NCBI RefSeq assembly: GCF_024267655.1
Contig: NZ_CP100595.1
Span: forward strand, 1,116,001 to 1,180,000
Length of the DNA stretch: 64,000 bases
Direction of reading: 5' to 3'
Origin: Arcobacter roscoffensis
Lineage (GTDB): Bacteria > Campylobacterota > Campylobacteria > Campylobacterales > Arcobacteraceae
Of this stretch, positions 8,589-64,000 are shown piece after piece. The stretch's first letter is position 1. The number at the start of each line of letters is the position of its first letter. Under the pieces are notes generated by a model. The model was given only the letters and a program-made list of their open reading frames with translations. It was not told where the DNA came from and searched no databases. The position numbers were made by a program, and so were the translations under genes.

Positions 8589-9365
8589 AAGAGCTTCAAG
8601 AAGCTCTTTTGAGTCCGTCCCTTTTTCATAAGCTTTGATTTTATATTCAAAATTAGCTTTTAAAACAATACCTGATTTACTTTTTAAAGTGCTATTTGCT
8701 AAAAGTCTTTTTATATTATTGATTAGACTTTGTGCATCTTTTTGTGTTTTATCACTAAAAAGAACTAAAAATTTGTTGTTTAGAAATCTTACTATTTCAA
8801 ATTCACATTTGTCATCTTCTAAATGTTTTTTTAGGAAATTACAAATGAAAATAAGTAGATTATTTGAGATTACATCTCCATACTCTTTTTGAACATAATT
8901 ATAATCAACTAAATCAACCATAGAAATAATTCCATTGTTTTTGAAATAAGTATTTTCGTCTAAAACTTCATTGTACAGCCATTTTCTATTATATGAACTT
9001 GTTAAATCGTCTAAGAAAATTTTTTTATTTAGTTCTTGAATCTCTTTTTCTAAGTCATCCATATGTTTATAAATACTAGTTAAGGCATCGGTGTCTTTAT
9101 CCTCAATAGCCTTTTTTGTATCTTTTGCAACTTTTTTAAGCTCTTTTGCATTGTTTGCCGTAATATCCATATAGCTTTCAATTGTATTAAAGTCTTCAAT
9201 AATTAGTTCATTTATCTCATTATTAAATTTTTCATCATTAAAATCTATTTCTAAAGTTTTTGCATTTTTATTAAACTTTTCAAAATAAATCGATGGCATA
9301 ATTATTTCATTGTTTAATAGCTCATTTATAGTAAGATTTGTAATCTTTCTAAGCTCTTTTTTCAT
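8580..9365 (-). CDS. Degenerate GGDEF-domain protein
   Basis: Soluble protein of 261 residues. The N-terminal half is helical and acidic (about 40-115) and resembles a coiled or signalling linker. The C-terminal half aligns with a GGDEF domain: LDDLTSSYNRKWL at about 118-130 matches the usual D-x-LTGLxNRR start. However, the active-site GGDEF is replaced by LNNKF at 195-199, so cyclase activity is not expected. It overlaps the GGDEF-EAL gene upstream by four bases (ATGA), which couples their translation. A role as a c-di-GMP or protein-binding partner of that phosphodiesterase is likely but inferred. Confidence 0.8.
   Translation of the reverse strand: MKKELRKITNLTINELLNNEIIMPSIYFEKFNKNAKTLEIDFNDEKFNNEINELIIEDFNTIESYMDITANNAKELKKVAKDTKKAIEDKDTDALTSIYKHMDDLEKEIQELNKKIFLDDLTSSYNRKWLYNEVLDENTYFKNNGIISMVDLVDYNYVQKEYGDVISNNLLIFICNFLKKHLEDDKCEFEIVRFLNNKFLVLFSDKTQKDAQSLINNIKRLLANSTLKSKSGIVLKANFEYKIKAYEKGTDSKELLEALLS
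8587..8610. terminator. Bidirectional hairpin terminator between pxpC and the convergent gene
   Basis: AAAAGAGCTTC and GAAGCTCTTTT form an 11-bp stem over an AA centre. On the plus strand it begins at the pxpC stop; on the minus strand it lies within the last codons of the degenerate GGDEF gene. The flanking T-runs are short (4 bases). Confidence 0.6.
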
Positions 9366-11390: not shown

Positions 11391-11921
11391 ATGGAAGAAT
11401 TGATTAGAGACTGGGGCTATATAGCTCTTTTTGCTTACTCATTTGGTGGTGGCTTTGTTGGTTTAGTATTTGCAGGGATTTTATCTTATGCAGGTGATTT
11501 GAACTTATTTATTTGTATTTTAGTAGCAGGGGTATCAAACTTTTTGGGTGATCAGTTTCTTTTCTTTTTAGCTAGAAAAAATAAAGCATATGCAAAAGAT
11601 ATGATGAAAAAATATGGAAGAAAAATTGCAATGGCACATTTACTTATGAGAAAATATGGCTCATTTGTAGTATTTTTCCAAAAATATGTTTACGGTATTA
11701 AAACTTTAATACCACTTGCAATGGGGCTTACAAAGTATTCAGGAATAAAGTTTTCTATTTTGAATATATTTGCAACAGCTCTTTGGGCAACTGTAGTAGG
11801 TTATGCATCTTACGCAGCAGGTGAGGTTATCTTAAGTTCAGCAGATGAGTTTAAGTATGTTGGTTTAGGAATTGTAGCAGTAATACTTCTTACAGTTTCT
11901 TACTATTTTAGAAAAATATAA
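11391..11921 (+). CDS. DedA/VTT-family membrane protein
   Basis: Integral inner-membrane protein of 176 residues. It has the DedA (SNARE-associated/VTT) layout: an N-terminal re-entrant hydrophobic region (about 10-55), a cytoplasmic basic segment, a second hydrophobic core with the QKYVYGIKTLIPLAMGL segment in the place of the usual GRF-x-PG-x-R motif, and a C-terminal helix (about 155-173). DedA proteins are linked to undecaprenyl-phosphate or phospholipid flipping and to proton-dependent homeostasis. The classic arginine motif is altered here, so substrate inference is weak. The downstream helicase begins 10 bases later. Confidence 0.85.
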   Translation: MEELIRDWGYIALFAYSFGGGFVGLVFAGILSYAGDLNLFICILVAGVSNFLGDQFLFFLARKNKAYAKDMMKKYGRKIAMAHLLMRKYGSFVVFFQKYVYGIKTLIPLAMGLTKYSGIKFSILNIFATALWATVVGYASYAAGEVILSSADEFKYVGLGIVAVILLTVSYYFRKI

Positions 11922-11931
11922 AGGCTATAAA

Positions 11932-13299
11932 ATTTCTACATTTAATAAATTAAATTTAAAAGATGAGTTTGTAAAAAACTTAGACTCATTAGAGTATAAA
12001 CAAATGACAAAGATACAAGAACTATCTTTACCACATACTTTAGACAATAAAGATATTATTGCTAAAGCTAAGACAGGTTCAGGAAAAACAGTAGCTTTTT
12101 CAATACCAATAGTAAATAAATTAGATGTTAAAAAGTTTAAAATACAGTCTTTAGTTTTAGCTCCAACAAGAGAACTTGCAAACCAAATAGCACAAGAAAT
12201 AAGAAAATTGTCACGTCATATTCATAATGTTAAGGTTTTAACTTTAACAGGTGGAGTTCCATTTAAACCTCAAGTAGCTTCACTTTTCCATGGGGCACAT
12301 ATAATTGTAGGAACACCAGGAAGAGTACTACAACATATTAAAGAAGAGAATATAAACTTCGAATCTTTAAATACATTTGTTTTGGATGAAGCAGATAAAA
12401 TGCTTGATATGGGATTCTTTGATGATATCAAACTTATTATTGATGAGCTTCCAAAACAAAAACAATCTATGCTATTTTCAGCAACTTATGAAGAAGGAAT
12501 TGAAAGTCTTGCTTCATTTGTTTTAAATGAGCCTATAAAAGTTGAAGTTGAAGATGAAGAAAAAGTTAACATAAAACAGGTTTTATATAAAGCAGATGAA
12601 GCTGTAAAAACTTCAATACTTCCATCACTAATTAGTTCAAATGAAGCTAATACTACTTTGATATTCTGTAATACAAAAGTTAAATGTGATGAGTTAGCAG
12701 ATGAATTATATGACTTAGGTTTAGATGTTTTAACTTTACATTCTGATTTAGAACAAAGAGATAGGGATGAGGTTATAACTTTATTTGCAAGTAAATCTTA
12801 TCCTATTTTAATAGCAACAGATGTAGCTTCAAGAGGTTTACATATTGATGATATTGATTTAGTAATAAATTATGATTTAGCAAGGGATGAAAAAGTTCAT
12901 ACCCATAGAATAGGAAGAACTGCAAGAGCTGGTAAAGGTGGTATGGCTATATCTTTATACGAAGCTTGGGAAGAAGAAAAAATAGAAGATTTAAAAGAGT
13001 TTTTTGATGATATTAAATTTGATGAAGTTTCAAATATAATAGAAAACCCATCTTTTAAAATTGATAGTGATTATAGAACACTCTTTATAAATGGTGGTAA
13101 AAAACAAAAACTAAGAGCAGGGGATATTTTAGGTGCTTTAACAGCAGGACTTGGTCTTGAAAAAACAAGTGTGGGAAAAATCACATCTTATGATTTTTGT
13201 TCATATGTTGCTGTTAAAAAAGAAGATATAAAAAAAGCACATGATGGATTAAGTAATAAAAGAATTAAAGGAAAATATTTTAGAGTTTTCATAAAATAA
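11932..13299 (+). CDS. dbpA: DbpA-type DEAD-box RNA helicase with apparent ATT start
   Basis: ATP-dependent RNA helicase of about 455 residues, probably acting in 50S ribosome assembly. Motifs in order: Q-motif FNKLNLKDEF...MTKIQ, Walker A AKTGSGKT, PTRELANQ, TPGRV, DEAD, SAT, ATDVASRGL, HRIGRTARAG, then a DbpA RNA-binding domain (about the last 70 residues; GDILGALTAGLGL to YFRVFIK). The first ATG (12004) would remove the Phe-containing half of the Q motif. The frame is open further up and contains no ATG, GTG, TTG or CTG. An AAGG at 11921-11924 is seven bases before an ATT at 11932, giving (M)STFNKLNL, exactly where relatives begin. I therefore infer an AUU start. Confidence 0.85.
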   Translation: MSTFNKLNLKDEFVKNLDSLEYKQMTKIQELSLPHTLDNKDIIAKAKTGSGKTVAFSIPIVNKLDVKKFKIQSLVLAPTRELANQIAQEIRKLSRHIHNVKVLTLTGGVPFKPQVASLFHGAHIIVGTPGRVLQHIKEENINFESLNTFVLDEADKMLDMGFFDDIKLIIDELPKQKQSMLFSATYEEGIESLASFVLNEPIKVEVEDEEKVNIKQVLYKADEAVKTSILPSLISSNEANTTLIFCNTKVKCDELADELYDLGLDVLTLHSDLEQRDRDEVITLFASKSYPILIATDVASRGLHIDDIDLVINYDLARDEKVHTHRIGRTARAGKGGMAISLYEAWEEEKIEDLKEFFDDIKFDEVSNIIENPSFKIDSDYRTLFINGGKKQKLRAGDILGALTAGLGLEKTSVGKITSYDFCSYVAVKKEDIKKAHDGLSNKRIKGKYFRVFIK

Positions 13300-21557: not shown

Positions 21558-23240
21558 TTAAGAGAATATCTTAAGAATAATCTCTTTTAGCTCTTTTTTC
21601 ATAGTCTCACTTAGTGTTTTTTTATTTGAGTAAATATAAAAAGGTACGGTGTTTTGCATAGAGTGTTTAAGTCTTTTTCTAAGCGTTGAAATCTCATCTA
21701 TATCTATCAAAGATTCGCCATCATAAAAACAAAAGTCTTTTTGAATACCAATTTTAAATGACACTATTTGATAAGTAAGAAATAGCTCATCTTTCTTATT
21801 TTCCCATCTTTTAGTAAAGGCATCTAACTCTTTTTGAAGGGTTTTAGCTCTATTTTCTGTGATATATCCAAAACTTTCTCTAAACTTATATCTTTGAACT
21901 GTTTCAAATCCTAACTCTTTATAAAACTCATTTAGGTTTTTCCAATGGGATTTAAATCTTCTTTTTCCAAATAGAACTTCTTCAAAACAATAAAGATATT
22001 TTTTATCTTGTGTAGTTAAGATTTTCTTATCTTTTATATAAAAGTACTCTTTTTTAAATAGTGAGATTAGCCAGTTCTCATCTAGCATAGATATTGTATC
22101 AAGTTGTTTTTCCACATCTTTTTCTTCATTGAAATTCCAAAGCATTGATATATTATCTTCATTATTTGCTGATTTGATTTTGTCATTAAAGAAATTATTA
22201 GAAAGATATAAAACTACATTTTCTAAAAGAGCATCTGTCTTTGCAATGCCATGATTATAAATCACTTTTTTGTATAAATTAAATCTCATTTCTAACATAT
22301 GTTCTATATCAATTAGTGACATATCAAAGAAACTTAAATAAAATTTATTCTTCTCTTCTACTAAAACAGCTTGTTTTGTGATTCTAATATGATCACTAGG
22401 ACCTGTGATATATCCACTTGCAAGCATATCTCTATTTACATAATCAAGTCTATCAGCATCAACAGTACTATCTATATAATTATGTAAAACTTTAAAGTCA
22501 AAACCATTATAAACTTTTTCTTCTAATATAAATAAACACAGTTTTTTTATTAGTTTTATGTATTCTTTATCAACACTTTTTTTAAGTAGGTCTTCTACTT
22601 CATAATCAAAAAGAAGTTCTAAAAGGTTTTTCCCTATTGCTTCATGAAGTACTTCTTTTGAATCTTGTGTTATCTGCTCATATTTAGTTTTAAATTCTAT
22701 TTCTTTTTTAAGTAAAACTTCTTTATTTAACTCTTTTTCTATGATTTTTCTATAAACTTTTTTTAGGGCATACTCTATTTGATGAGAGAAAGGAAGGTGC
22801 CCCACATCATGTAATAATCCAACTATTCTAATAGTTTGTAAAACAATACAATAAGAAACTCTATGAGCCTTTGATTTTGTAGGAATATTAAATTGATATA
22901 AAGCTTTGTTATCGAAATACTCCATATCTTTTAAATCAAGTTTTAAGGCATCCTCTTCAATGATTTTTAAAATTACATCTTTTAGTGAATCAAGGAAGTC
23001 GTTTTTTGTTTTTTTATTTGCATTTAAAAGAGAGTTTTTAAACATAAATGAAGCTAAATGCATAGTTCCAAGTGAATGTATAAACCTCTTTGTTGTAATA
23101 GATGGATAAGAAAAATATGCTAATGCATTTTGTGTAATAAACTGTAATCTGTTTACTATTTTTGTTTGTAATAATTTGTCTTCTAATTTTGTGTACTCTA
23201 TATGATTATAGATAGTATCATTTATTAATCTATTTTGTAT
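21558..23240 (-). CDS. HD-domain phosphohydrolase (dGTPase/SAMHD-like) with apparent ATA start
   Basis: Soluble protein of about 560 residues with an HD metal-dependent phosphohydrolase domain: TKRFIHSLGTMHLA supplies the first histidine, LLHDVGHLPFSH the HD pair, and YIDSTVDADRLDYVNRDM a downstream aspartate site. These match dGTPase/SAMHD-type proteins, so it may hydrolyse dNTPs. The first ATG (23063) would remove the first metal-ligand region. The open frame extends up to 23250 with no ATG, GTG, TTG or CTG. An AAGGA (complement of 23247-23251) lies six bases before an ATA at 23238-23240. I infer an AUA start. It follows the PhoH-like gene by 12 bases and is probably co-transcribed. Confidence 0.82.
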   Translation of the reverse strand: MQNRLINDTIYNHIEYTKLEDKLLQTKIVNRLQFITQNALAYFSYPSITTKRFIHSLGTMHLASFMFKNSLLNANKKTKNDFLDSLKDVILKIIEEDALKLDLKDMEYFDNKALYQFNIPTKSKAHRVSYCIVLQTIRIVGLLHDVGHLPFSHQIEYALKKVYRKIIEKELNKEVLLKKEIEFKTKYEQITQDSKEVLHEAIGKNLLELLFDYEVEDLLKKSVDKEYIKLIKKLCLFILEEKVYNGFDFKVLHNYIDSTVDADRLDYVNRDMLASGYITGPSDHIRITKQAVLVEEKNKFYLSFFDMSLIDIEHMLEMRFNLYKKVIYNHGIAKTDALLENVVLYLSNNFFNDKIKSANNEDNISMLWNFNEEKDVEKQLDTISMLDENWLISLFKKEYFYIKDKKILTTQDKKYLYCFEEVLFGKRRFKSHWKNLNEFYKELGFETVQRYKFRESFGYITENRAKTLQKELDAFTKRWENKKDELFLTYQIVSFKIGIQKDFCFYDGESLIDIDEISTLRKRLKHSMQNTVPFYIYSNKKTLSETMKKELKEIILKIFS

Positions 23241-23252
23241 TTTAAATCCTTA

Positions 23253-24632
23253 TTAGTTCTCTTTTTTCTTTTCAAAAATTCGCTCTGTAAATTGTGCATA
23301 TTTACCTCTTACTGCTTTATCAAGTTCAATTGCAAACATATTAAGCTCTTCATGTTTACTACTTGTTTGCTTTAATAAAGTTGTAAGACCGTTATTGTAT
23401 TTATTTAAATATAAATTATCAATTTGTCTGTTTGAACCAATCACTATAGCCATACAAGATTCATCAAGTCTTGATAGAATTAATTGTGTTGTTTTTTCAC
23501 TTGAGTTTTGCCACTCATCCATGATAACTATAGCACTTGATAGAGTTCTTCCTCTAGCTTCTCCTGGCCATAAAGTTTCAATACAGTATTTTGACTGAAG
23601 TTCACTTATCTTTGACTCAATTGATTCTTTATTATCCTTATTTTCACTTTTTTTAAGTTGTTTTTTTGCTATAAATTCCAAAGTGTCATGTACAGCCATA
23701 TTATAGATTCTAAATTTTTCATCATTTCCTGCAAGATAACCAATATCAGCACCTTTATCTAAAGATTCAATTGAGTTCCTAACATATACTATTTTGTCAT
23801 ATAGTCCTAAGTCAATAAGTCTCATGGCACTTACTATTGACATAAGTGTTTTCCCACTTCCTGCTTTTGCATCAATTACAAGTAAATCATACATATTAGA
23901 TAAAATAGCTTTTGTAAATAGTTTTTGCTTTAAATTTACAGGTTTTACATTTAATGACTTAAAGTCTGTTTCTTTTAAAATATCGAGTTTACCATTGTAA
24001 ACAATACCATAAGTTGAATTTCCATCAGGGCTTTCAAAACTATATGAAAAGTTTTCATATACGTAGTGTTCATCTATATTAAATATATTTTTTTTATCAA
24101 GACTATTAAAGTTACTTGAGTCAAAATCAAGTTTTTTAACAAACTCAAAGCTTGGAACAGTTGATTTATCATCATGTAAAGTCTCTGTTTTTAAACCCTT
24201 AAATAAAGCGAAAGTTCTAGCATAAACATCAAGAGATAAAAAAATAGTCTGTAAGCCTTTATAGTATTCTTGAGCAATAGATGCAACTTCTATGATTCTT
24301 TTATCATTACTTTCACTTATATGGATTTGTTCTATTTGTGTATCATAAACATCTTTTGAAATGATATGTAAGTTTAGTTCATCATTAAAAAACTTTATTA
24401 CTTTAAAGCCTAGTTTATAATCAACTTCTTTTATTTTCATTTTGGCTAATAATCTAGCAAACTCTCTTGAATAAAAACCTAATTCATTTGTCAACTTCTT
24501 CTTATCTTCAAGTTCTAGTAAAACTGTTTCTGGGATTACAATATGGTTAGTTTTATTGTCAGATATTTTATAAAGATTTTGAATATTCTGTAAAATGATA
24601 TTTGTGTCTAATACGTATATTTTATCTTTCAT
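23253..24632 (-). CDS. PhoH-family ATPase with N-terminal PIN domain
   Basis: Cytoplasmic protein of 459 residues. The N-terminal PIN nuclease-like domain (about 1-150) starts YVLDTNIILQN and keeps other acidic residues. The C-terminal PhoH ATPase (about 225-450) has Walker A DAKAGSGKT (about 255-263), Walker B IVIMDEWQNS and the IGSNRQID sensor segment; DEWQN replaces the more usual DEAQN. PIN-PhoH proteins (PhoH2 type) are linked to RNA unwinding and cleavage. The gene is followed by the HD-domain gene. A possible role in nucleotide or RNA turnover is inferred. Confidence 0.9.
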   Translation of the reverse strand: MKDKIYVLDTNIILQNIQNLYKISDNKTNHIVIPETVLLELEDKKKLTNELGFYSREFARLLAKMKIKEVDYKLGFKVIKFFNDELNLHIISKDVYDTQIEQIHISESNDKRIIEVASIAQEYYKGLQTIFLSLDVYARTFALFKGLKTETLHDDKSTVPSFEFVKKLDFDSSNFNSLDKKNIFNIDEHYVYENFSYSFESPDGNSTYGIVYNGKLDILKETDFKSLNVKPVNLKQKLFTKAILSNMYDLLVIDAKAGSGKTLMSIVSAMRLIDLGLYDKIVYVRNSIESLDKGADIGYLAGNDEKFRIYNMAVHDTLEFIAKKQLKKSENKDNKESIESKISELQSKYCIETLWPGEARGRTLSSAIVIMDEWQNSSEKTTQLILSRLDESCMAIVIGSNRQIDNLYLNKYNNGLTTLLKQTSSKHEELNMFAIELDKAVRGKYAQFTERIFEKKKEN

Positions 24633-53469: not shown

Positions 53470-53502
53470 TAAGTTATCAATCATCAAGAAAAAGGATATA
53501 TT

Positions 53503-56500
53503 ATGAAAAGACCAAGTGGATTAAATAATTTACATAGAAGATACCAAAGACATCAAGAGAAACTACAGGCTAAAAAACAAAAAAAACTATTCAAAGAAGG
53601 AAATAGTTTATTTGAAATAGAACCTTTAGAGCAAAGGACACTATTATCTGCTGATCCTTTACTTGGTGCAGGTTCTGCTGCAGTTATTTTAAATGATAAT
53701 GAAAATAAATACCAAGAAACACAAACAATAATCCTTGATGATACTTTAAATGAAAAAGAAACAGTTGTAAAAGATTTAACAACTGAAGATAACTCTTTCT
53801 TACTTGATGCAAAACTTATAGACTTTAATAATATATCTGAATTACTAATTGATGATGAAATCCTAGGGGGAAGTGGTACTATCGAGGCTGATGTTGTAAA
53901 CTATAACATTGTAGCTCCTGGTTACTCTCCAGGTATCCAAAATATTACTGGTGATTATACACAAGATAGTAGCGGTACCCTTCAAATAGAAATTGGTGGA
54001 CTTGATAACTCTGATACAAATAATCCTGAATATGACCAATTAAATGCTTCTGGAAATATTGAGCTTGATGGTACTTTAGAAATTACTATGTGGGATGATT
54101 TTGCTGCAAATGTAGGGGATGAATTTACTATTATTACAGGTTCAAATATTACAGGTGCATTTACAGATATTACAGGTCTTTACGGATTTAATTCTGATTA
54201 CTACTTTGATATTGAACAAACAAGTACAGAAGTAAAACTTATCACGAAAGAGTTGGTATCTGGAGATGATTTCAACTTTGTATTAGATACTGTTCCTCAA
54301 TATGATGAAATAGGAAAAGTTTTAAATGCTGATTATTTAGTATCAGCACAAAATAGTATTGAACTAAATGACATAGATATTCAAGTTTCAGGGTTTGCTG
54401 CAAGTGGTAATTTTGCTATTGAAAAAAACACTAATACTATTGAAATTATTGGTTCGGGTGTATCAGTTACTATGAATGCCTCTGATATTTTTGTTGGGGT
54501 TGAAAATGCAGATTTAGGAATCATTGTTGATAGTAATAAAAAAGTTGCTTTAGAAGCAAGTGGTGATATTGTATTAGATGGTTTTGATTTTGATTTACCT
54601 ACTGCACAAAGTGTATCTGTAAAATTAAATCAAACAGGTACAGAATATACGGATGAGACACTAACTATTGGAACTTCATCTTATACTTTTGATAATATCG
54701 CATCTTCTACAACTCTAAAAGAGATAGGTATTACAGGTTTAGATGTAACATTTAGTGATAATATAGTTTTAAAAGGTGACTTTGCTTTTGTAAGTGATAC
54801 TACAAATAATGTATTTAATGCAATATCATCTAATGCAACAGCTTATATGAGTGCAGGTGATTTTTATGTTGGTGTAAGTAGTGCAAATTTAGGTTTAATG
54901 GTAACTGATGAAGGTGTAGTTTTACAAGCAAATGGTGCTTTAGATGTATCTTTAGGTAGTGATATCGTTTTAAGTGCTGAAAATGTTTCATTTGATTACA
55001 ATGAAACGGCTACAGATTATTTAAATGAAACTATTAGTGTTGGCGCATCAACTTTTACTTTCAATGTTGAGTCTTTACACAAGGCTACAAATATTACTAA
55101 TGGTTCATTAAATGTATTTGACTTTTTAACAGCTTCTGGAAATTTCTCTTTTACTCAATCAAACGATACTGTAACTTTATCTGATAGTACAAATACTTCA
55201 GTAGAATTATTAACTTTAGGTATGACAAATGTTACAGCATTTGCAGGACTAAATGCAAACTCAAGTGATAAAGTAGGTTTTGAACTTTCTAATTTAGACC
55301 TTGCTTTAGTATTTGCTGTTGATACAAAAAACAATGCAAGAAAGTGGACTGCATTACAAGCTAGTACAAATAGTATTTCATTTGTAGGAAGTGATAAACT
55401 AACAATCGAAGCTACATCTACACTTTTAGAAATAAATAGAAGTGCTATTGATGGTACATTAATTGATTTTAAATTAAATCCATTAACAATACAAGTAGGT
55501 ACAGACTCTTTATCTTTAACAATGGATGCAAGTGAAGGTGAACTTTTAAGAGTTTCAGGAGATATGATTATAAACATAAGTGATTTCTTCATCTTTGAAG
55601 GAAGTGTTTATTTTAGTAAATCAACTACAAGTGTAACTTTAACAGACGATAGTGTTGTAAGTGTTGATAATTTGACTTTAGCCATGAATGGTGTAGATGC
55701 ATTTGCTGGTTTAGATGCTCAAAGCTCAAATAAAGTTGGTTTAGACTTAGAAGGTGTTTCTTTTGCCTACTCAATTATGGCAAGCAAGAGTGTCGCAAGT
55801 GATAAATGGACATCGTTTAAAGCTAAAGCAACTGGAGCTTCTTTTGTGGGAATTGATGATGTAACAATTGATGCAAGAGATATTTTAGTAAATATAAATA
55901 CTTCTTCAAATGCTGAGTTTGTTGATTATTCAAAAACATCATATAGTGTAGATTTCCAAAATGGAAACAGTATAGAGTTTGATATGCAAGCTGAAATTAT
56001 AGAATTAAGTGCTGATATAACATTTAATTTATATGATTTTTTAGTTATTGACGGTGGCTTTGCTATTGAAAAATCTACACTAGATGATGTAGTACTAAGT
56101 GATGAATCATTAGTTGATGTTGATTTACTTACTGTTGGTGCAAATAATTTAACTGCATTTGCTGGATTAAATTATGGAAAAACTGATGAGGTTGGGTTAT
56201 CTTTAAGTGGTGTTTCTTTTGCTCTTAGTGTAATGAGTGAAAAAACAGCTAATAAAAGAAAATGGTTAGCCCTTCAAGCAACTGCACAAAACGCAGGTTT
56301 AGTTGGAGTAGATGATTTAGTATTAAAAGGAAGTGATTTAAATATATTGATAAATCAAGCTTCTTCTGATGGTACTTTAGTTGATTTTAGTTCTATGAGT
56401 TTTGCAGTTGATACAAGTTCTTCAACTTCAATTACCTTAGATATGGACGGAAGTGTAGGAGAGTACTTAAAAGTAAGTGGACACTTCGATGTAAATGTAT

Positions 56501-59500
56501 ATAATTTCTTTAGTACAAGCGGTAACTTTGCATTAGAGAAGACAACAGATACAGTAAGCCTAGATAGTGGAGAGAATGTAAATGTAGATTTACTAACAAT
56601 AGGAGCAGATTCAGTAGATGCGTTTGTTGGAGTAAATGGAGGAAGCAGTGATGCAATAGGGATCCAAGCCACAAATACAAACTTTGCATTAGCAATATTA
56701 AATGATAAAACAGTAGGAAGTAATTCTCAATGGATATCATTACAAGCAACAGTAGGGACAGCTGGATTTGTAGGGATAGATGGATTAAGCCTAAGCGCAA
56801 GTAACCTAGATGTACAAATAAATAGAAGTAGTGAAACAGGGTCAGATGCAAGATATGTAGATTATGCAATAAATAATCTAGAAGTAGCAACAGGAACAGA
56901 CACAAGCTTTAACTTAACAATGGATGGAAGCCAAAAAGAGTTAACACAAATTAGTGGAGCTATGGATATAAACATCTTTAACTTCTTTAGTGTAAATGGA
57001 GAGTTTGCATTAAAGAAATATACAGACTATGATATAAAAACAGTAGATAAAGATGATAGTACAAATACAACAACAATAGAAGAAGTAGATGTATTAACAC
57101 TAGGAGCATTAGGAGCAAACGCATTCATAGGAATGAATGGAGGAAGTGATGAAGCCCTAGGACTAAGCGCAGCAGGTGTAAACTTTGCCTTAGCAATAAT
57201 CAATAATAAATCAAATAAAAATGAAAGTTTCACATCCCTACAAGCAACAACAAATAATGTAAGCTTCGTAGGAATAGAAGACTTAACAGTAAGCGCAACA
57301 GACTTAGCATTAAATATCAACCAAGCGTCAAATACAAATAAAGTAGTAGACTATAAAACAATGGAAGATAATGGTGATGCCTTTGATGTACTAGTAGGAA
57401 CAAACCAAACAGTAACATTAGATATGGATGGAAGTAGAGGAGAATTACTAGAAGCATCAGGACACCTAGAATTAAACCTATTTAACTTTATAGGATTAGA
57501 AGGAAACTTCGGATTTGAGAAATCAGTAAGAGAAGTAACCCTAAACTCAGGTGAAAGTATAAAAGTAGATTACCTAGGATTAGGTGGAGAGAATGTAAGT
57601 GCATTCGCAGGATTAAATTATAAACAAGCAGATGCAGTAGGATTAAGCTTAGGAGATATGGACTTCGGATTAGCTTTAATGAGTGATAAGAAAGATAATA
57701 CAAGAAAGTTCACATCATTACAAGCGACAGCATCAAGTGCAGGACTAATCGGAGTAGATGGATTAGTAATAGAAGCTAGTGACTTAGAAGTATATGTAAA
57801 TCAAGGTATCAAAGTAGATGAGATACCAGATGAGACAATAAAAGAGAATACAATTTTAAAAGTAAGCATCACAGAAGATATAAGAGGTGATGTAGTAATA
57901 ACAAAAGATGGCTCAAATGAAATACTAAATATAGATGGAAGTGAAACAAATGAGACATTATTAGCAGAATTAAAAGCAGCATTTGTAAGTTTAGCAGGAA
58001 CAGACGCCGTAAATGTAGAAGTAAGTGGCGATAAAGTAAATGGATATAAAGTAGAGTTTGTAGGAGCACTAGAAGGTGTAAATGTAGAAGGGTTTACAGT
58101 TTCAACAACAGCACCAAGTGCAAGTGTAAGTATATCGACGATAGAAGAGGCGAAAGCGGGAGTAGATGAGATAACAAGATTAACAATCGATACTCCTAGA
58201 GTTGTTACTGCGCCAATAGACACAGAAATATCTACAATAACAAATACTTCAAGTGGAACAAATGAAATTCAAACAATAACTTTCCATGACCCATATGATG
58301 CAGGGACATATACATTATCAAATGGTGTAAGTTCAGTTAGTGTTAAATTTGTAGGAAGTCAAACTTTAACAAATCAAACAAATATACAAAAAGCATTAGT
58401 AACACTATATGGTGGAACAACAGCAGACTATAAAGTTAAGTTTGATTCAAGTTCAAGTGGAAGTCATAAGTATTATATTACCTTCCAAGGAACAAAAGCA
58501 AATAGTAATATTACAGAATTAAATGCAACACCAGATTCTAATATGAAAGCAATTTCTGTTTCTACATATAAAGAAGGAACAGGAGCTCTTAGTGAAACAC
58601 AAGAGTTTAAAGTTTCAACAACAGCAACTGGAAACTATACTTTATCTTTAGATTATAATGGAAATACATATACTACAAGTGCATTAGACTTTAATGCAAC
58701 AGCAAATGAAATTCAAACAGCATTAACAAATGCGATTTCTTCAATAAGTGGAGCAACTGTTTCTGTAGTAGATTCAGTATCAGGTAAAGAAGATACATAT
58801 GAAGTTACATTTGCAGGTACATTATCAGGAGTAGATTTAGCACTTTTATCAATAAAAACAAATCCAGATGCTACAAGCGCGAGTGGGACATTTGATATAT
58901 GGTTTGAAGGAGATAGTAAGCAAACAGTAGCATATTCAACAGATATGAGTGTGTTAGCAAGTAATATTCAAACAGCATTAGAAGCAACAAGTACGATGGG
59001 TGCAGGAAATGTACAAGTAGAGTATGATGCAGCAAATTCAAATGAGACACAAATAAATTTCCTAATAAAAGCGATAGGAACATTAGAGAAGACAGATGTA
59101 AGTGATAAGTTCTATACAGATGATAGTAATCTAAACCTAGCAAGTACAAAATTGTACTATGAAGTAGAAGGGTATAGTGATACAGCAGAAGAGCAAAAGT
59201 TAGTATTTAACTCAGAGACAGAATATAGTTATACATTAACATATAATGGACAAACAACAAGTGCGATATTATCAAGTGCAACAATAACAGAGATACAAGC
59301 TATTATAGATACAGAGTTAACAAGTGATATAAAAGTAAGTAACTTTAATGGAACAGAATTAGTATTAAGCTTTGAAGGAAGTTTAGCAGGGACAGATGTA
59401 GAGACAATAGTAGCAAATGTAGAAGCTAAGACAAGTGAAGCAAGTATAGAAGTAAGTCAAGCAGGGTCAACAACAGTAATTGCAGGGAAAGAGGCAAGTG

Positions 59501-62500
59501 CAATAGTAGTTGATTATAAAGCGATGAATGAGGTATCTGCAACAACAGATGATGATTTCAAAGTATTATCAGGAACAGGTAAATACTTTACTTTAGATAT
59601 GGATGGAAGTGTAGGAGAGTACTTAAAAGTAAGTGGACACTTCGATGTAAATGTATATAATTTCTTTAGTACAAGCGGTAACTTTGCATTAGAGAAGACA
59701 ACAGATACAGTAAGCCTAGATAGTGGAGAGAATGTAAATGTAGATTTACTAACAATAGGAGCAGATTCAGTAGATGCGTTTGTTGGAGTAAATGGAGGAA
59801 GCAGTGATGCAATAGGGATCCAAGCCACAAATACAAACTTTGCATTAGCAATATTAAATGATAAAACAGTAGGAAGTAATTCTCAATGGATATCATTACA
59901 AGCAACAGTAGGGACAGCTGGATTTGTAGGGATAGATGGATTAAGCCTAAGCGCAAGTAACCTAGATGTACAAATAAATAGAAGTAGTGAAACAGGGTCA
60001 GATGCAAGATATGTAGATTATGCAATAAATAATCTAGAAGTAGCAACAGGAACAGACACAAGCTTTAACTTAACAATGGATGGAAGCCAAAAAGAGTTAA
60101 CACAAATTAGTGGAGCTATGGATATAAACATCTTTAACTTCTTTAGTGTAAATGGAGAGTTTGCATTAAAGAAATATACAGACTATGATATAAAAACAGT
60201 AGATAAAGATGATAGTACAAATACAACAACAATAGAAGAAGTAGATGTATTAACACTAGGAGCATTAGGAGCAAACGCATTCATAGGAATGAATGGAGGA
60301 AGTGATGAAGCCCTAGGACTAAGCGCAGCAGGTGTAAACTTTGCCTTAGCAATAATCAATAATAAATCAAATAAAAATGAAAGTTTCACATCCCTACAAG
60401 CAACAACAAATAATGTAAGCTTCGTAGGAATAGAAGACTTAACAGTAAGCGCAACAGACTTAGCATTAAATATCAACCAAGCGTCAAATACAAATAAAGT
60501 AGTAGACTATAAAACAATGGAAGATAATGGTGATGCCTTTGATGTACTAGTAGGAACAAACCAAACAGTAACATTAGATATGGATGGAAGTAGAGGAGAA
60601 CTACTAGAAGCATCAGGACACCTAGAATTAAACCTATTTAACTTTATTGGATTAGAAGGAAACTTCGGATTTGAGAAATCAGTAAGAGAAGTAACACTAA
60701 ACTCAGGTGAAAGTATAAAAGTAGATTACCTAGGATTAGGTGGAGAGAATGTAAGTGCATTCGCAGGATTAAATTATAAACAAGCAGATGCAGTAGGATT
60801 AAGCTTAGGAGATATGGACTTCGGATTAGCTTTAATGAGTGATAAGAAAGATAATACAAGAAAGTTCACATCATTACAAGCGACAGCATCAAGTGCAGGA
60901 CTAATCGGAGTAGATGGATTAGTAATAGAAGCTAGTGACTTAGAAGTATATGTAAATCAAGGTATCAAAGTAGATGAGATACCAGATGAGACAATAAAAG
61001 AGAATACAATTTTAAAAGTAAGCATCACAGAAGATATAAGAGGTGATGTAGTAATAACAAAAGATGGCTCAAATGAAATACTAAATATAGATGGAAGTGA
61101 AACAAATGAGACATTATTAGCAGAATTAAAAGCAGCATTTGTAAGTTTAGCAGGAACAGACGCCGTAAATGTAGAAGTAAGTGGCGATAAAGTAAATGGA
61201 TATAAAGTAGAGTTTGTAGGAGCACTAGAAGGTGTAAATGTAGAAGGGTTTACAGTTTCAACAACAGCACCAAGTGCAAGTGTAAGTATATCGACGATAG
61301 AAGAGGCGAAAGCGGGAGTAGATGAGATAACAAGATTAACAATCGATACTCCTAGAGTTGTTACTGCGCCAGTAAATGTAAGTGTGACAACAACAGCTAC
61401 AGCAGTTTCTGGAATGGATGAAGTAAAACATATTATTTTTAAATCTCCTACATCTTCAACTGGTACATATAAAATTACATCTAACTCTAAAACATCAGAG
61501 ACAATAACTTATGATAAAAATAGTGTAGAAACAAATAAAACAAGAATAAAAAATGCTTTCTTAAGTTTATATAATGATTTAGCAACAGGTGTTTCAAGTG
61601 ATGATATTATAGTTACACAAGAAGTATTAGCAGATGGTAGTCATCAATATAATGTTAAGTTTACAAATGATTTAGGACATAAAGATGTTCCATCATATAA
61701 AGTTTCATGGAGAGGTTTATCTATGAAAATAGCTACAACAGATAATGGTGTAGCACAAGTAAATGAAACTCAAAACTTTAAAATATCAACAACAGCAACA
61801 GGAACATATAATTTATCATTTGCATACAATGGAAATACATACACAACAAGTGAACTTAATTTTACAGCAGATGCAACAGCAATTCAAACAGCATTAAATA
61901 ATGCAGTAACATTAGCAGATACAAGTATAAGTGTAACAGGAAATACTGCAAATGGATTTGATGTTGTATTTGGTGGAAGTCTAAGTGGTATAGATGTAGA
62001 GACATTAAAAGTTAAAACAAATCCAGATGCTACAAGCGCGAGTGGGACATTTGATATATGGTTTGAAGGAGATAGTAAGCAAACAGTAGCATATTCAACA
62101 GATATGAGTGTGTTAGCAAGTAATATTCAAACAGCATTAGAAGCAACAAGTACGATGGGTGCAGGAAATGTACAAGTAGAGTATGATGCAGCAAATTCAA
62201 ATGAGACACAAATAAATTTCCTAATAAAAGCGATAGGAACATTAGAGAAGACAGATGTAAGTGATAAGTTCTATACAGATGATAGTAATCTAAACCTAGC
62301 AAGTACAAAATTGTACTATGAAGTAGAAGGGTATAGTGATACAGCAGAAGAGCAAAAGTTAGTATTTAACTCAGAGACAGAATATAGTTATACATTAACA
62401 TATAATGGACAAACAACAAGTGCGATATTATCAAGTGCAACAATAACAGAGATACAAGCTATTATAGATACAGAGTTAACAAGTGATATAAAAGTAAGTA

Positions 62501-64000
62501 ACTTTAATGGAACAGAATTAGTATTAAGCTTTGAAGGAAGTTTAGCAGGGACAGATGTAGAGACAATAGTAGCAAATGTAGAAGCTAAGACAAGTGAAGC
62601 AAGTATAGAAGTAAGTCAAGCAGGGTCAACAACAGTAATTGCAGGGAAAGAGGCAAGTGCAATAGTAGTTGATTATAAAGCGATGAATGAGGTATCTGCA
62701 ACAACAGATGATGATTTCAAAGTATTATCAGGAACAGGTAAATACTTTACTTTAGATATGGATGGAAGTGTAGGAGAGTACTTAAAAGTAAGTGGACACT
62801 TCGATGTAAATGTATATAATTTCTTTAGTACAAGCGGTAACTTTGCATTAGAGAAGACAACAGATACAGTAAGCCTAGATAGTGGAGAGAATGTAAATGT
62901 AGATTTACTAACAATAGGAGCAGATTCAGTAGATGCGTTTGTTGGAGTAAATGGAGGAAGCAGTGATGCAATAGGGATCCAAGCCACAAATACAAACTTT
63001 GCATTAGCAATATTAAATGATAAAACAGTAGGAAGTAATTCTCAATGGATATCATTACAAGCAACAGTAGGGACAGCTGGATTTGTAGGGATAGATGGAT
63101 TAAGCCTAAGCGCAAGTAACCTAGATGTACAAATAAATAGAAGTAGTGAAACAGGGTCAGATGCAAGATATGTAGATTATGCAATAAATAATCTAGAAGT
63201 AGCAACAGGAACAGACACAAGCTTTAACTTAACAATGGATGGAAGCCAAAAAGAGTTAACACAAATTAGTGGAGCTATGGATATAAACATCTTTAACTTC
63301 TTTAGTGTAAATGGAGAGTTTGCATTAAAGAAATATACAGACTATGATATAAAAACAGTAGATAAAGATGATAGTACAAATACAACAACAATAGAAGAAG
63401 TAGATGTATTAACACTAGGAGCATTAGGAGCAAACGCATTCATAGGAATGAATGGAGGAAGTGATGAAGCCCTAGGACTAAGCGCAGCAGGTGTAAACTT
63501 TGCCTTAGCAATAATCAATAATAAATCAAATAAAAATGAAAGTTTCACATCCCTACAAGCAACAACAAATAATGTAAGCTTCGTAGGAATAGAAGACTTA
63601 ACAGTAAGCGCAACAGACTTAGCATTAAATATCAACCAAGCGTCAAATACAAATAAAGTAGTAGACTATAAAACAATGGAAGATAATGGTGATGCCTTTG
63701 ATGTACTAGTAGGAACAAACCAAACAGTAACATTAGATATGGATGGAAGTAGAGGAGAACTACTAGAAGCATCAGGACACCTAGAATTAAACCTATTTAA
63801 CTTTATTGGATTAGAAGGAAACTTCGGATTTGAGAAATCAGTAAGAGAAGTAACACTAAACTCAGGTGAAAGTATAAAAGTAGATTACCTAGGATTAGGT
63901 GGAGAGAATGTAAGTGCATTCGCAGGATTAAATTATAAACAAGCAGATGCAGTAGGATTAAGCTTAGGAGATATGGACTTCGGATTAGCTTTAATGAGTG
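53503..64000 (+). CDS. Giant repetitive surface protein with LEPR-XLL N-terminus, 3' end beyond window
   Basis: One uninterrupted frame of 3,499 codons with no stop in the window. Start ATG 53503 has AAAGGA upstream. The N-terminus is basic (HRRYQRHQEK) and then has FEIEPLEQRTLLSADP (residues 37-52), the LEPR-XLL type motif of very large secreted proteins. Next comes a passenger-like beta region (about 135-250; APGYSPGIQ, DYTQDSSGTLQIEIGGLD). From about residue 300 a degenerate unit of about 150 residues repeats, with G-x-FALEK, VDLLTLGA, AFAGLN, SLQATA, VGIDGL and LDMDGS segments. After 56449 it becomes 3.16-kb DNA super-repeats. Probably a secreted adhesin or S-layer-like protein; the export system is not in view. 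Confidence 0.9.
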   Translation, partial: MKRPSGLNNLHRRYQRHQEKLQAKKQKKLFKEGNSLFEIEPLEQRTLLSADPLLGAGSAAVILNDNENKYQETQTIILDDTLNEKETVVKDLTTEDNSFLLDAKLIDFNNISELLIDDEILGGSGTIEADVVNYNIVAPGYSPGIQNITGDYTQDSSGTLQIEIGGLDNSDTNNPEYDQLNASGNIELDGTLEITMWDDFAANVGDEFTIITGSNITGAFTDITGLYGFNSDYYFDIEQTSTEVKLITKELVSGDDFNFVLDTVPQYDEIGKVLNADYLVSAQNSIELNDIDIQVSGFAASGNFAIEKNTNTIEIIGSGVSVTMNASDIFVGVENADLGIIVDSNKKVALEASGDIVLDGFDFDLPTAQSVSVKLNQTGTEYTDETLTIGTSSYTFDNIASSTTLKEIGITGLDVTFSDNIVLKGDFAFVSDTTNNVFNAISSNATAYMSAGDFYVGVSSANLGLMVTDEGVVLQANGALDVSLGSDIVLSAENVSFDYNETATDYLNETISVGASTFTFNVESLHKATNITNGSLNVFDFLTASGNFSFTQSNDTVTLSDSTNTSVELLTLGMTNVTAFAGLNANSSDKVGFELSNLDLALVFAVDTKNNARKWTALQASTNSISFVGSDKLTIEATSTLLEINRSAIDGTLIDFKLNPLTIQVGTDSLSLTMDASEGELLRVSGDMIINISDFFIFEGSVYFSKSTTSVTLTDDSVVSVDNLTLAMNGVDAFAGLDAQSSNKVGLDLEGVSFAYSIMASKSVASDKWTSFKAKATGASFVGIDDVTIDARDILVNINTSSNAEFVDYSKTSYSVDFQNGNSIEFDMQAEIIELSADITFNLYDFLVIDGGFAIEKSTLDDVVLSDESLVDVDLLTVGANNLTAFAGLNYGKTDEVGLSLSGVSFALSVMSEKTANKRKWLALQATAQNAGLVGVDDLVLKGSDLNILINQASSDGTLVDFSSMSFAVDTSSSTSITLDMDGSVGEYLKVSGHFDVNVYNFFSTSGNFALEKTTDTVSLDSGENVNVDLLTIGADSVDAFVGVNGGSSDAIGIQATNTNFALAILNDKTVGSNSQWISLQATVGTAGFVGIDGLSLSASNLDVQINRSSETGSDARYVDYAINNLEVATGTDTSFNLTMDGSQKELTQISGAMDINIFNFFSVNGEFALKKYTDYDIKTVDKDDSTNTTTIEEVDVLTLGALGANAFIGMNGGSDEALGLSAAGVNFALAIINNKSNKNESFTSLQATTNNVSFVGIEDLTVSATDLALNINQASNTNKVVDYKTMEDNGDAFDVLVGTNQTVTLDMDGSRGELLEASGHLELNLFNFIGLEGNFGFEKSVREVTLNSGESIKVDYLGLGGENVSAFAGLNYKQADAVGLSLGDMDFGLALMSDKKDNTRKFTSLQATASSAGLIGVDGLVIEASDLEVYVNQGIKVDEIPDETIKENTILKVSITEDIRGDVVITKDGSNEILNIDGSETNETLLAELKAAFVSLAGTDAVNVEVSGDKVNGYKVEFVGALEGVNVEGFTVSTTAPSASVSISTIEEAKAGVDEITRLTIDTPRVVTAPIDTEISTITNTSSGTNEIQTITFHDPYDAGTYTLSNGVSSVSVKFVGSQTLTNQTNIQKALVTLYGGTTADYKVKFDSSSSGSHKYYITFQGTKANSNITELNATPDSNMKAISVSTYKEGTGALSETQEFKVSTTATGNYTLSLDYNGNTYTTSALDFNATANEIQTALTNAISSISGATVSVVDSVSGKEDTYEVTFAGTLSGVDLALLSIKTNPDATSASGTFDIWFEGDSKQTVAYSTDMSVLASNIQTALEATSTMGAGNVQVEYDAANSNETQINFLIKAIGTLEKTDVSDKFYTDDSNLNLASTKLYYEVEGYSDTAEEQKLVFNSETEYSYTLTYNGQTTSAILSSATITEIQAIIDTELTSDIKVSNFNGTELVLSFEGSLAGTDVETIVANVEAKTSEASIEVSQAGSTTVIAGKEASAIVVDYKAMNEVSATTDDDFKVLSGTGKYFTLDMDGSVGEYLKVSGHFDVNVYNFFSTSGNFALEKTTDTVSLDSGENVNVDLLTIGADSVDAFVGVNGGSSDAIGIQATNTNFALAILNDKTVGSNSQWISLQATVGTAGFVGIDGLSLSASNLDVQINRSSETGSDARYVDYAINNLEVATGTDTSFNLTMDGSQKELTQISGAMDINIFNFFSVNGEFALKKYTDYDIKTVDKDDSTNTTTIEEVDVLTLGALGANAFIGMNGGSDEALGLSAAGVNFALAIINNKSNKNESFTSLQATTNNVSFVGIEDLTVSATDLALNINQASNTNKVVDYKTMEDNGDAFDVLVGTNQTVTLDMDGSRGELLEASGHLELNLFNFIGLEGNFGFEKSVREVTLNSGESIKVDYLGLGGENVSAFAGLNYKQADAVGLSLGDMDFGLALMSDKKDNTRKFTSLQATASSAGLIGVDGLVIEASDLEVYVNQGIKVDEIPDETIKENTILKVSITEDIRGDVVITKDGSNEILNIDGSETNETLLAELKAAFVSLAGTDAVNVEVSGDKVNGYKVEFVGALEGVNVEGFTVSTTAPSASVSISTIEEAKAGVDEITRLTIDTPRVVTAPVNVSVTTTATAVSGMDEVKHIIFKSPTSSTGTYKITSNSKTSETITYDKNSVETNKTRIKNAFLSLYNDLATGVSSDDIIVTQEVLADGSHQYNVKFTNDLGHKDVPSYKVSWRGLSMKIATTDNGVAQVNETQNFKISTTATGTYNLSFAYNGNTYTTSELNFTADATAIQTALNNAVTLADTSISVTGNTANGFDVVFGGSLSGIDVETLKVKTNPDATSASGTFDIWFEGDSKQTVAYSTDMSVLASNIQTALEATSTMGAGNVQVEYDAANSNETQINFLIKAIGTLEKTDVSDKFYTDDSNLNLASTKLYYEVEGYSDTAEEQKLVFNSETEYSYTLTYNGQTTSAILSSATITEIQAIIDTELTSDIKVSNFNGTELVLSFEGSLAGTDVETIVANVEAKTSEASIEVSQAGSTTVIAGKEASAIVVDYKAMNEVSATTDDDFKVLSGTGKYFTLDMDGSVGEYLKVSGHFDVNVYNFFSTSGNFALEKTTDTVSLDSGENVNVDLLTIGADSVDAFVGVNGGSSDAIGIQATNTNFALAILNDKTVGSNSQWISLQATVGTAGFVGIDGLSLSASNLDVQINRSSETGSDARYVDYAINNLEVATGTDTSFNLTMDGSQKELTQISGAMDINIFNFFSVNGEFALKKYTDYDIKTVDKDDSTNTTTIEEVDVLTLGALGANAFIGMNGGSDEALGLSAAGVNFALAIINNKSNKNESFTSLQATTNNVSFVGIEDLTVSATDLALNINQASNTNKVVDYKTMEDNGDAFDVLVGTNQTVTLDMDGSRGELLEASGHLELNLFNFIGLEGNFGFEKSVREVTLNSGESIKVDYLGLGGENVSAFAGLNYKQADAVGLSLGDMDFGLALMS
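56449..59604 (+). repeat. Super-repeat unit 1 (3,156 bp) inside the giant gene
   Basis: It is in register with unit 2 at an offset of 3,156 bp up to 58215, with only a few base changes (for example near 57450, 57490 and 57540). A diverged cassette occupies 58216-58854, and identity resumes from 58855 at offset 3,159. The unit is a whole number of codons (1,052), so adding or losing copies keeps the frame. Confidence 0.92.
58216..58854 (+). repeat. Diverged internal cassette of unit 1 (639 bp)
   Basis: This cassette encodes 213 residues and is bordered by near-identical DNA on both sides. Its product is homologous to but clearly different from that of the 642-bp cassette at 61372-62013; both end with STTATG-x-Y, YNGNTYTTS and a GxLSGxD segment. 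Its codons (ATT, GTT, TTC) look like the ordinary part of the gene. Confidence 0.85.
59605..62763 (+). repeat. Super-repeat unit 2 (3,159 bp) inside the giant gene
   Basis: It encodes 1,053 residues. It contains the diverged cassette 61372-62013 (642 bp). Where unit 1 differs slightly from unit 2, unit 3 matches unit 2, so units 2 and 3 are the more recent pair. Confidence 0.92.
61372..62013 (+). repeat. Diverged internal cassette of unit 2 (642 bp)
   Basis: Counterpart of 58216-58854, one codon longer. It encodes 214 residues beginning VNVSVTTTATAVSG, and has FKISTTATGTYNLSF and YNGNTYTTSELNF near its end. Confidence 0.85.
62764..64000 (+). repeat. Super-repeat unit 3, cut by window edge
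   Basis: The first 1,237 bp of a third copy, at offset 3,159 from unit 2, with no difference that I noticed by eye. It continues past the window, so the true copy number is unknown. Confidence 0.9.

Follow-up and report, generated by a model that had tools for sequence, protein, structure and literature searches.

Our study asked where translation begins in a gene for an HD-domain phosphohydrolase of Arcobacter roscoffensis, the reading frame of which is open above its first ATG and holds no standard start codon there. The gene (positions 21558-23240, minus strand; 560 codons, coordinates including the stop) lies in the stretch of 64,000 nucleotides that was analysed as a whole and that we call the window. 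The original prediction placed its start at an AUA codon (ATA 23238-23240, minus strand) and paired it with a second isoleucine-codon start, that of the dbpA gene nearby. We examined the start region itself, the aligned codon in relatives, other genes that appear to start with AUA, AUU or AUC (hereafter AUH), and the initiation machinery.

The start region of the HD gene

Directly upstream of the HD gene is a gene encoding a PIN/PhoH-like ATPase (23253-24632, minus strand), and the minus-strand sequence at their junction reads ...gagaacTAATAAGGATTTAAAATACAAAATAGATTAATAAAT... The PhoH stop codon, TAA 23255-23253, shares the frame of the HD gene, and another TAA follows at once in this frame (23252-23250), giving tandem stops (TAATAA, 23250-23255, minus strand). 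After the second TAA, the frame continues with GGA TTT AAA ATA CAA AAT AGA TTA ATA AAT GAT, on to the ATG at 23063 (23061-23063, minus strand; Met60), which lies within a conserved GTMH motif, is the 63rd codon of the open frame and leaves 501 codons to the stop. The open frame predicted upstream of this ATG was indeed found, beginning at 23249 and not at 23250 as had been proposed, and direct reading of the sequence confirmed that it contains no ATG, GTG or TTG between the tandem stops and ATG 23063. The Shine-Dalgarno (SD) motif AAGGA (23251-23247, minus strand), which overlaps the second TAA, stands six bases before the ATA as stated, and the region of the SD motif and start is predicted to be unpaired. 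Between the proposed ATA and ATG 23063 lie 59 codons, and the motif TKRFIHSLGT is encoded there, again as predicted; its histidine, residue 55 counting from the ATA (codon 23076-23078, minus strand), is taken, by its role in the HD family, to be the first histidine of the HD domain.

The stretch above the first ATG (residues 2-59; 23064-23237, minus strand) is conserved more strongly than any other part of the protein, with 29 invariant columns of 59 in an alignment of 23 homologues. Among the 28 loci of the core clade described below, the third position varies in 56 of the first 59 codons and the first or second position in 26; variation that falls mostly at third positions is the pattern of a translated sequence. 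Residues 4-66 align with SAMHD1-type structures (phmmer; best E-value 4e-12, SAMHD1 chains about 1e-9). His55 and the HD motif His144-Asp145 (22806-22811, minus strand) are invariant in the alignment of 23 sequences and, together with Asp263, in one of 30; we presume by analogy that these residues are the H...HD...D metal ligands, Asp263 above all being assigned in this way. The AlphaFold model of the protein has a mean pLDDT of 81.6, with a weak part at residues 36-50, and its best Foldseek match is SAMHD1 (E-value 6e-9, TM-scores 0.51/0.60), bacterial HD dNTPases being also among the best. The fold and the HD residues are common to SAMHD1, these bacterial enzymes (PDB 6txc, 2q14, 3irh) and the protein studied here, but identity over the structural matches is only 15-18%, and a search of the protein for a SAM domain found none. 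Since its HD residues are invariant and its model is closest to SAMHD1 and the bacterial HD dNTPases, the protein is probably a dNTP triphosphohydrolase.

Start codons of the HD gene in relatives

The HD gene was found in 23 of 60 relatives. A further search found 66 loci in named genomes, and the start was read in 61 of these, L137 (N-terminus off the contig) and L146-L149 (the most distant) being left out. The core clade comprises 27 loci at 64% identity or more and the window, 28 in all, and the more distant group 34 loci at 58% or less. At the aligned start codon, the core loci have ATA (17), ATT (5), ATC (4) or TTG (2) and never ATG, so that 26 of 28 carry an AUH codon; they include the cultured Poseidonibacter lekithochrous, P. 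ostreae, Aliarcobacter vitoriensis, Malaciobacter halophilus and Arcobacter caeni. In all 34 more distant homologues, ATG (33) or GTG (1) stands at the aligned position or no more than three codons away. This comparison of the start region, which had been suggested as a check, supports the AUA start. In L086, L097-L100, L102 and L106-L108, the exact start is ambiguous, since another AUH codon precedes it by one or two codons. According to a quick tree built from 38 proteins, the third base of the start has changed at least seven times among A, C and T within the clade, and all 10 members of the outgroup chosen for it from the 34 distant loci have ATG. Because G occupies only 5% of the four-fold third positions of these genes, the lack of ATG after seven such changes is weak evidence of selection.

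Other readings of the locus were weighed against these data. A protein that begins at ATG 23063, with the stretch above it untranslated, would start at the first ATG, the one that any program limited to ATG, GTG and TTG would pick; this codon has no SD motif, however, the 29 invariant columns and His55 would be lost, and the stretch above it evolves like coding DNA, which leaves this reading extremely improbable. We also consider it very improbable that the start lies further upstream, or in a different frame that programmed frameshifting would join to this one. Six of the 28 core loci (L084, L086, L101, L103, L106 and L140) do contain an upstream in-frame canonical codon, so that a longer start is possible in them, but the other 22, two of which start with TTG, have no ATG, GTG or TTG between the in-frame stop and the start; 20 of the 26 AUH loci thus offer no alternative canonical codon as far up as the in-frame stop, and in L104 a TAG immediately abuts the ATA.

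That the AUA is not an independent start codon, and that the HD protein arises by re-initiation, readthrough or fusion with PhoH, finds its support in the window, where PhoH is in the HD frame and stops only 12 nt before the ATA. Yet two tandem TAA codons separate the two genes, the PhoH stop ranges among the core loci from 11 nt inside the HD gene (-11) to 302 nt ahead of its start codon (+302), in all three frames and with AUH kept, and PhoH is absent from the upstream 2.5 kb at four of the 28 (two with AUH, two with TTG), all of which makes such an origin quite improbable; translational coupling may still add to the use of the AUA where the two genes abut. Nothing was found in favour of a sequencing error, the probability of which we regard as negligible, given that 26 of the 28 loci, which come from separate assemblies and in several cases from cultured strains (Poseidonibacter, Aliarcobacter, Malaciobacter), carry AUH. 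The three explanations that could have overturned the original prediction (a PhoH fusion or re-initiation, a sequencing error and a start at 23063) are thus all unlikely. Comparison with relatives leaves the AUA as the best-supported start of the HD gene, and translation very probably begins at AUA 23240-23238.

Other genes with proposed AUH starts

The companion case named in the original prediction proved to be real: the dbpA RNA helicase gene (11932-13299, plus strand) has a proposed AUU start at 11932-11934, with AAGG (11921-11924, plus strand) seven bases upstream of the ATT and no ATG, GTG or TTG before 12004. We scanned the window and 20 stretches of 20 kb of the genome for coding sequence above the first canonical codon, and found, besides dbpA and the HD gene, ubiB (AUA), cobB (AUU/AUC), rnpA (AUU) and perhaps pnuC, with no canonical codon anywhere in the rnpA frame. 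Like scans of other genomes gave uvrB in G034, baiN in G017 and candidates in G001 that were named by eye as membrane proteins; in the outgroup G050, rnpA was the sole convincing case. In cobB, rnpA and baiN, Pfam domains already begin upstream of the first canonical codon.

Orthologue starts were called by one rule among the loci retrieved, at most 30 per gene, and the resulting counts describe families chosen for having one AUH member, not genome-wide rates. AUH starts were called in 9 of 31 loci for uvrB, 3 of 14 for cobB, 10 of 30 for baiN and 10 of 30 for dbpA, the last with three loci left without a call, two of which (G004 and G022) look like AUH by eye. For ubiB, 11 of 16 loci were used, five without the N-terminus or distant being left out, and AUH was called in 5 of the 11, with five giving no call. 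The same automatic rule gave AUH in 13 of 23 cases for the HD gene; it calls the core loci of G034, G030 and G014 canonical on account of an in-frame TTG or ATG 6-10 codons upstream, before the SD motif, and the locus of G031 has TTG at the start itself. AUG and AUH are exchanged at orthologous starts of uvrB, cobB, baiN and dbpA, as in cobB, where ATC AAA GCT TTA (G000, G022) corresponds to ATG AAA GCT TTA (G008, G013); ubiB and rnpA had AUH-only starts.

In rnpA, an essential gene, 28 of the 30 loci listed have AUH by the rule (ATT 27, ATA 1). Its frame lacks a canonical start near the N-terminus in most genomes of the order (L274 in G000; L250-L279), and its start overlaps the rpmH 3' end, the two genes being in different frames. 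The rpmH codon that overlaps the rnpA ATT ends in A in all 26 loci read (of 30 listed), but so do 216 of the 246 remaining Arg codons in these genes. The rnpA case is weaker than it looks, the ATT being largely fixed by the overlapping rpmH frame.

AUH starts are associated with SD motifs. In uvrB, cobB and baiN taken together, an SD match of at least four bases precedes 22 of 22 AUH starts versus 13 of 50 canonical starts (Fisher 8e-10, kinship ignored). No SD motif was needed for a start to be called in this comparison, and 3 of 75 loci gave no call and were dropped; the seeds of the three families came from a scan that did require an SD motif, so that 3 of the 22 AUH starts are biased. As in leaderless genes, 14 of the 50 canonical starts have a -10-like box in the 17 nt upstream in place of an SD motif, versus none of the 22 AUH starts. 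In ATG-starting uvrB genes (L286, L289, L295, L299, L301 and L303), we noticed TATAAT-like boxes that precede the ATG by a few bases, which suggests that their transcripts are leaderless. In SD-less genes, we also compared SD motifs before AUH codons and before other triplets (0.078 versus 0.028 in G000; 0.062 versus 0.023, with small numbers, in the outgroup G050), and rejected this control as evidence for AUH starts, some of its rows being ordinary ATG starts 1-3 codons downstream and the ratio in the outgroup being the same.

We looked for an altered initiation machinery in the anticodon arm of the initiator tRNA, in IF3 and in the start of infC, and found nothing. In 38 of 41 genomes the arm is intact with its three G-C pairs (GGG/CCC); the pattern used to search for it had no match in the remaining three. 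IF3, the inspection of which had also been proposed, is an ordinary member of its family. Of the 30 infC loci listed (L054-L083), 26 could be read, and every one starts with TTG, unlike the AUU, AUA and AUC starts known for the gene elsewhere.

AUH starts seem to be infrequent. Random stretches of this genome held three or four AUH genes among about 300, a share near 1% with a wide error, and genome-wide rates rest on such sampled stretches. In a blind test of 418 orthologue pairs of sampled genes, three columns showed AUH with an SD motif and none was convincing on reading, so AUH starts are rare in a genome; their true share may well be under 1%.

A codon-score scan of the sampled stretches also produced many false leads, which were removed by eye or by dropping stretches. 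One kind consisted of antisense ORFs of a repeat-rich adhesin (L157; window 53-64 kb). The plus strand of the window carries, from 53473 to 64000, a very long open frame that continues past the end of the window and contains near-identical units at intervals of about 3159 bases, with antisense ORFs that repeat within it at 56355, 59514 and 62673; it probably encodes a giant adhesin. Another false lead was the orfB of IS3, present in three copies in G017 (L202, L208 and L209) as identical-looking IS3-like transposase second frames (named by eye). Frameshifting is usual in IS3 elements, and it is probably through a frameshift that these frames mimic an AUH start. The remaining lead was an ArsC-like gene split by a TGA. 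This ArsC-family gene (Pfam ArsC; L168:2848-3189 in G000, and L188 near position 8705 in G034) has the TGA at the place of the expected catalytic cysteine in both genomes (YGIKT-TGA-xSVRKA), and is a candidate selenoprotein gene.

Discussion

From sequence, we infer the position of the HD start, its being an AUH codon and its association with an SD motif. In the mechanism that we propose, the AAGGA motif would place the ribosome at AUA 23240-23238, where the ordinary fMet initiator tRNA (anticodon CAU) would pair with the first two bases and tolerate the mismatch at the third. The product would be the full 560-residue SAMHD1-like phosphohydrolase with a complete HD site, and its expected N-terminus would be (M)QNRLINDTIYNH, with QNRLIND... 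from the second codon onward. Several other genes of the Arcobacteraceae would use the same solution, i.e. AUA, AUU or AUC together with an SD motif. SD-compensated initiation by the ordinary initiator tRNA is likely, and initiation at AUH starts is probably weak. As a further step, an AUH start would be weaker than AUG, with IF3 limiting, as for infC in E. coli; control of AUH starts by IF3 is a guess from this precedent.

The regulatory part of this explanation, and that part only, is rivalled by a reading in which AUH starts serve no purpose and result from AT-biased mutation of AUG under a strong SD motif, in genes of which little protein is needed and without regulation by IF3. The rarity of G at four-fold third positions (5%), the alternation of orthologues between AUH and AUG, and the SD motif that accompanies each of the 22 AUH starts in uvrB, cobB and baiN are in line with it. 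In the HD gene, on the other hand, AUH is kept clade-wide while the more distant homologues read all have ATG or GTG, which disfavours neutral back-and-forth and is not decisive. We give purposeless relaxation of the start slightly less than even credence. We propose, more tentatively, that SD-compensated AUA, AUC and AUU codons form a regular minor class of starts in the Arcobacteraceae, comprising some ten to a few tens of genes in each genome, which would have strong SD motifs, exchange with AUG and be translated in step with IF3, and of which the AUU of rnpA would be common to most of the order.

Single AUH starts were already known; what is new is that they recur in several unrelated genes of one family, where AUG orthologues serve as natural controls. 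In the literature searched, isoleucine-codon starts are documented for few bacterial genes. If the starts proposed here are true, at least seven unrelated AUH genes and their AUG orthologues would make start-codon fidelity testable in evolution, and would raise the questions of when the third base of the start is dispensable, how far SD strength compensates for it and whether IF3 controls a set of genes. Annotation limited to the usual start codons would shorten or miss AUH genes, and misannotation can affect N-termini, or even an entire gene such as rnpA, in these genomes.

Our literature searches, which reached subscription journals only in small part, found no report, among the papers listed, of AUU or other non-canonical starts in Arcobacter, nor of an AUU start in rnpA/rpmH; those on non-AUG starts in Helicobacter and Campylobacter, and on AUA starts generally, gave no case from the Arcobacteraceae. 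Known systems offer several parallels. The sigR gene of Streptomyces also has a non-canonical start; it was missed by annotation and is repressed by IF3, but this start is GUC (GTC), belongs to a single regulator gene and is experimentally proven (PMC5472188). The infC gene starts with AUU in E. coli and AUC in Streptomyces (PMC5472188), and pcnB of E. coli with AUU, according to a title cited in PMC13009471. The two E. coli genes share with ours an isoleucine start codon, and their own initiation is inefficient or repressed by IF3 (PMC5472188, PMC13009471), whereas the genes found here (the HD phosphohydrolase gene, dbpA, uvrB, cobB, baiN, ubiB and rnpA) are unrelated to IF3. The AUH starts with SD motifs described here fit the weak AUA and AUU starts of staphylococci, which have an extended SD motif and give about 10% of the expression of AUG in poor medium (PMC13009471). 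In S. aureus, infC, ccpN and citZ (AUA) and cvfC1 (AUU) have strong SD motifs, and the starts of ccpN and cvfC1 are kept across relatives (PMC13009471). Those four sites were established by experiment in one species (PMC13009471), whereas the starts proposed here, read from sequence alone, would occur within a bacterial family in seven gene families or more and include AUC as well.
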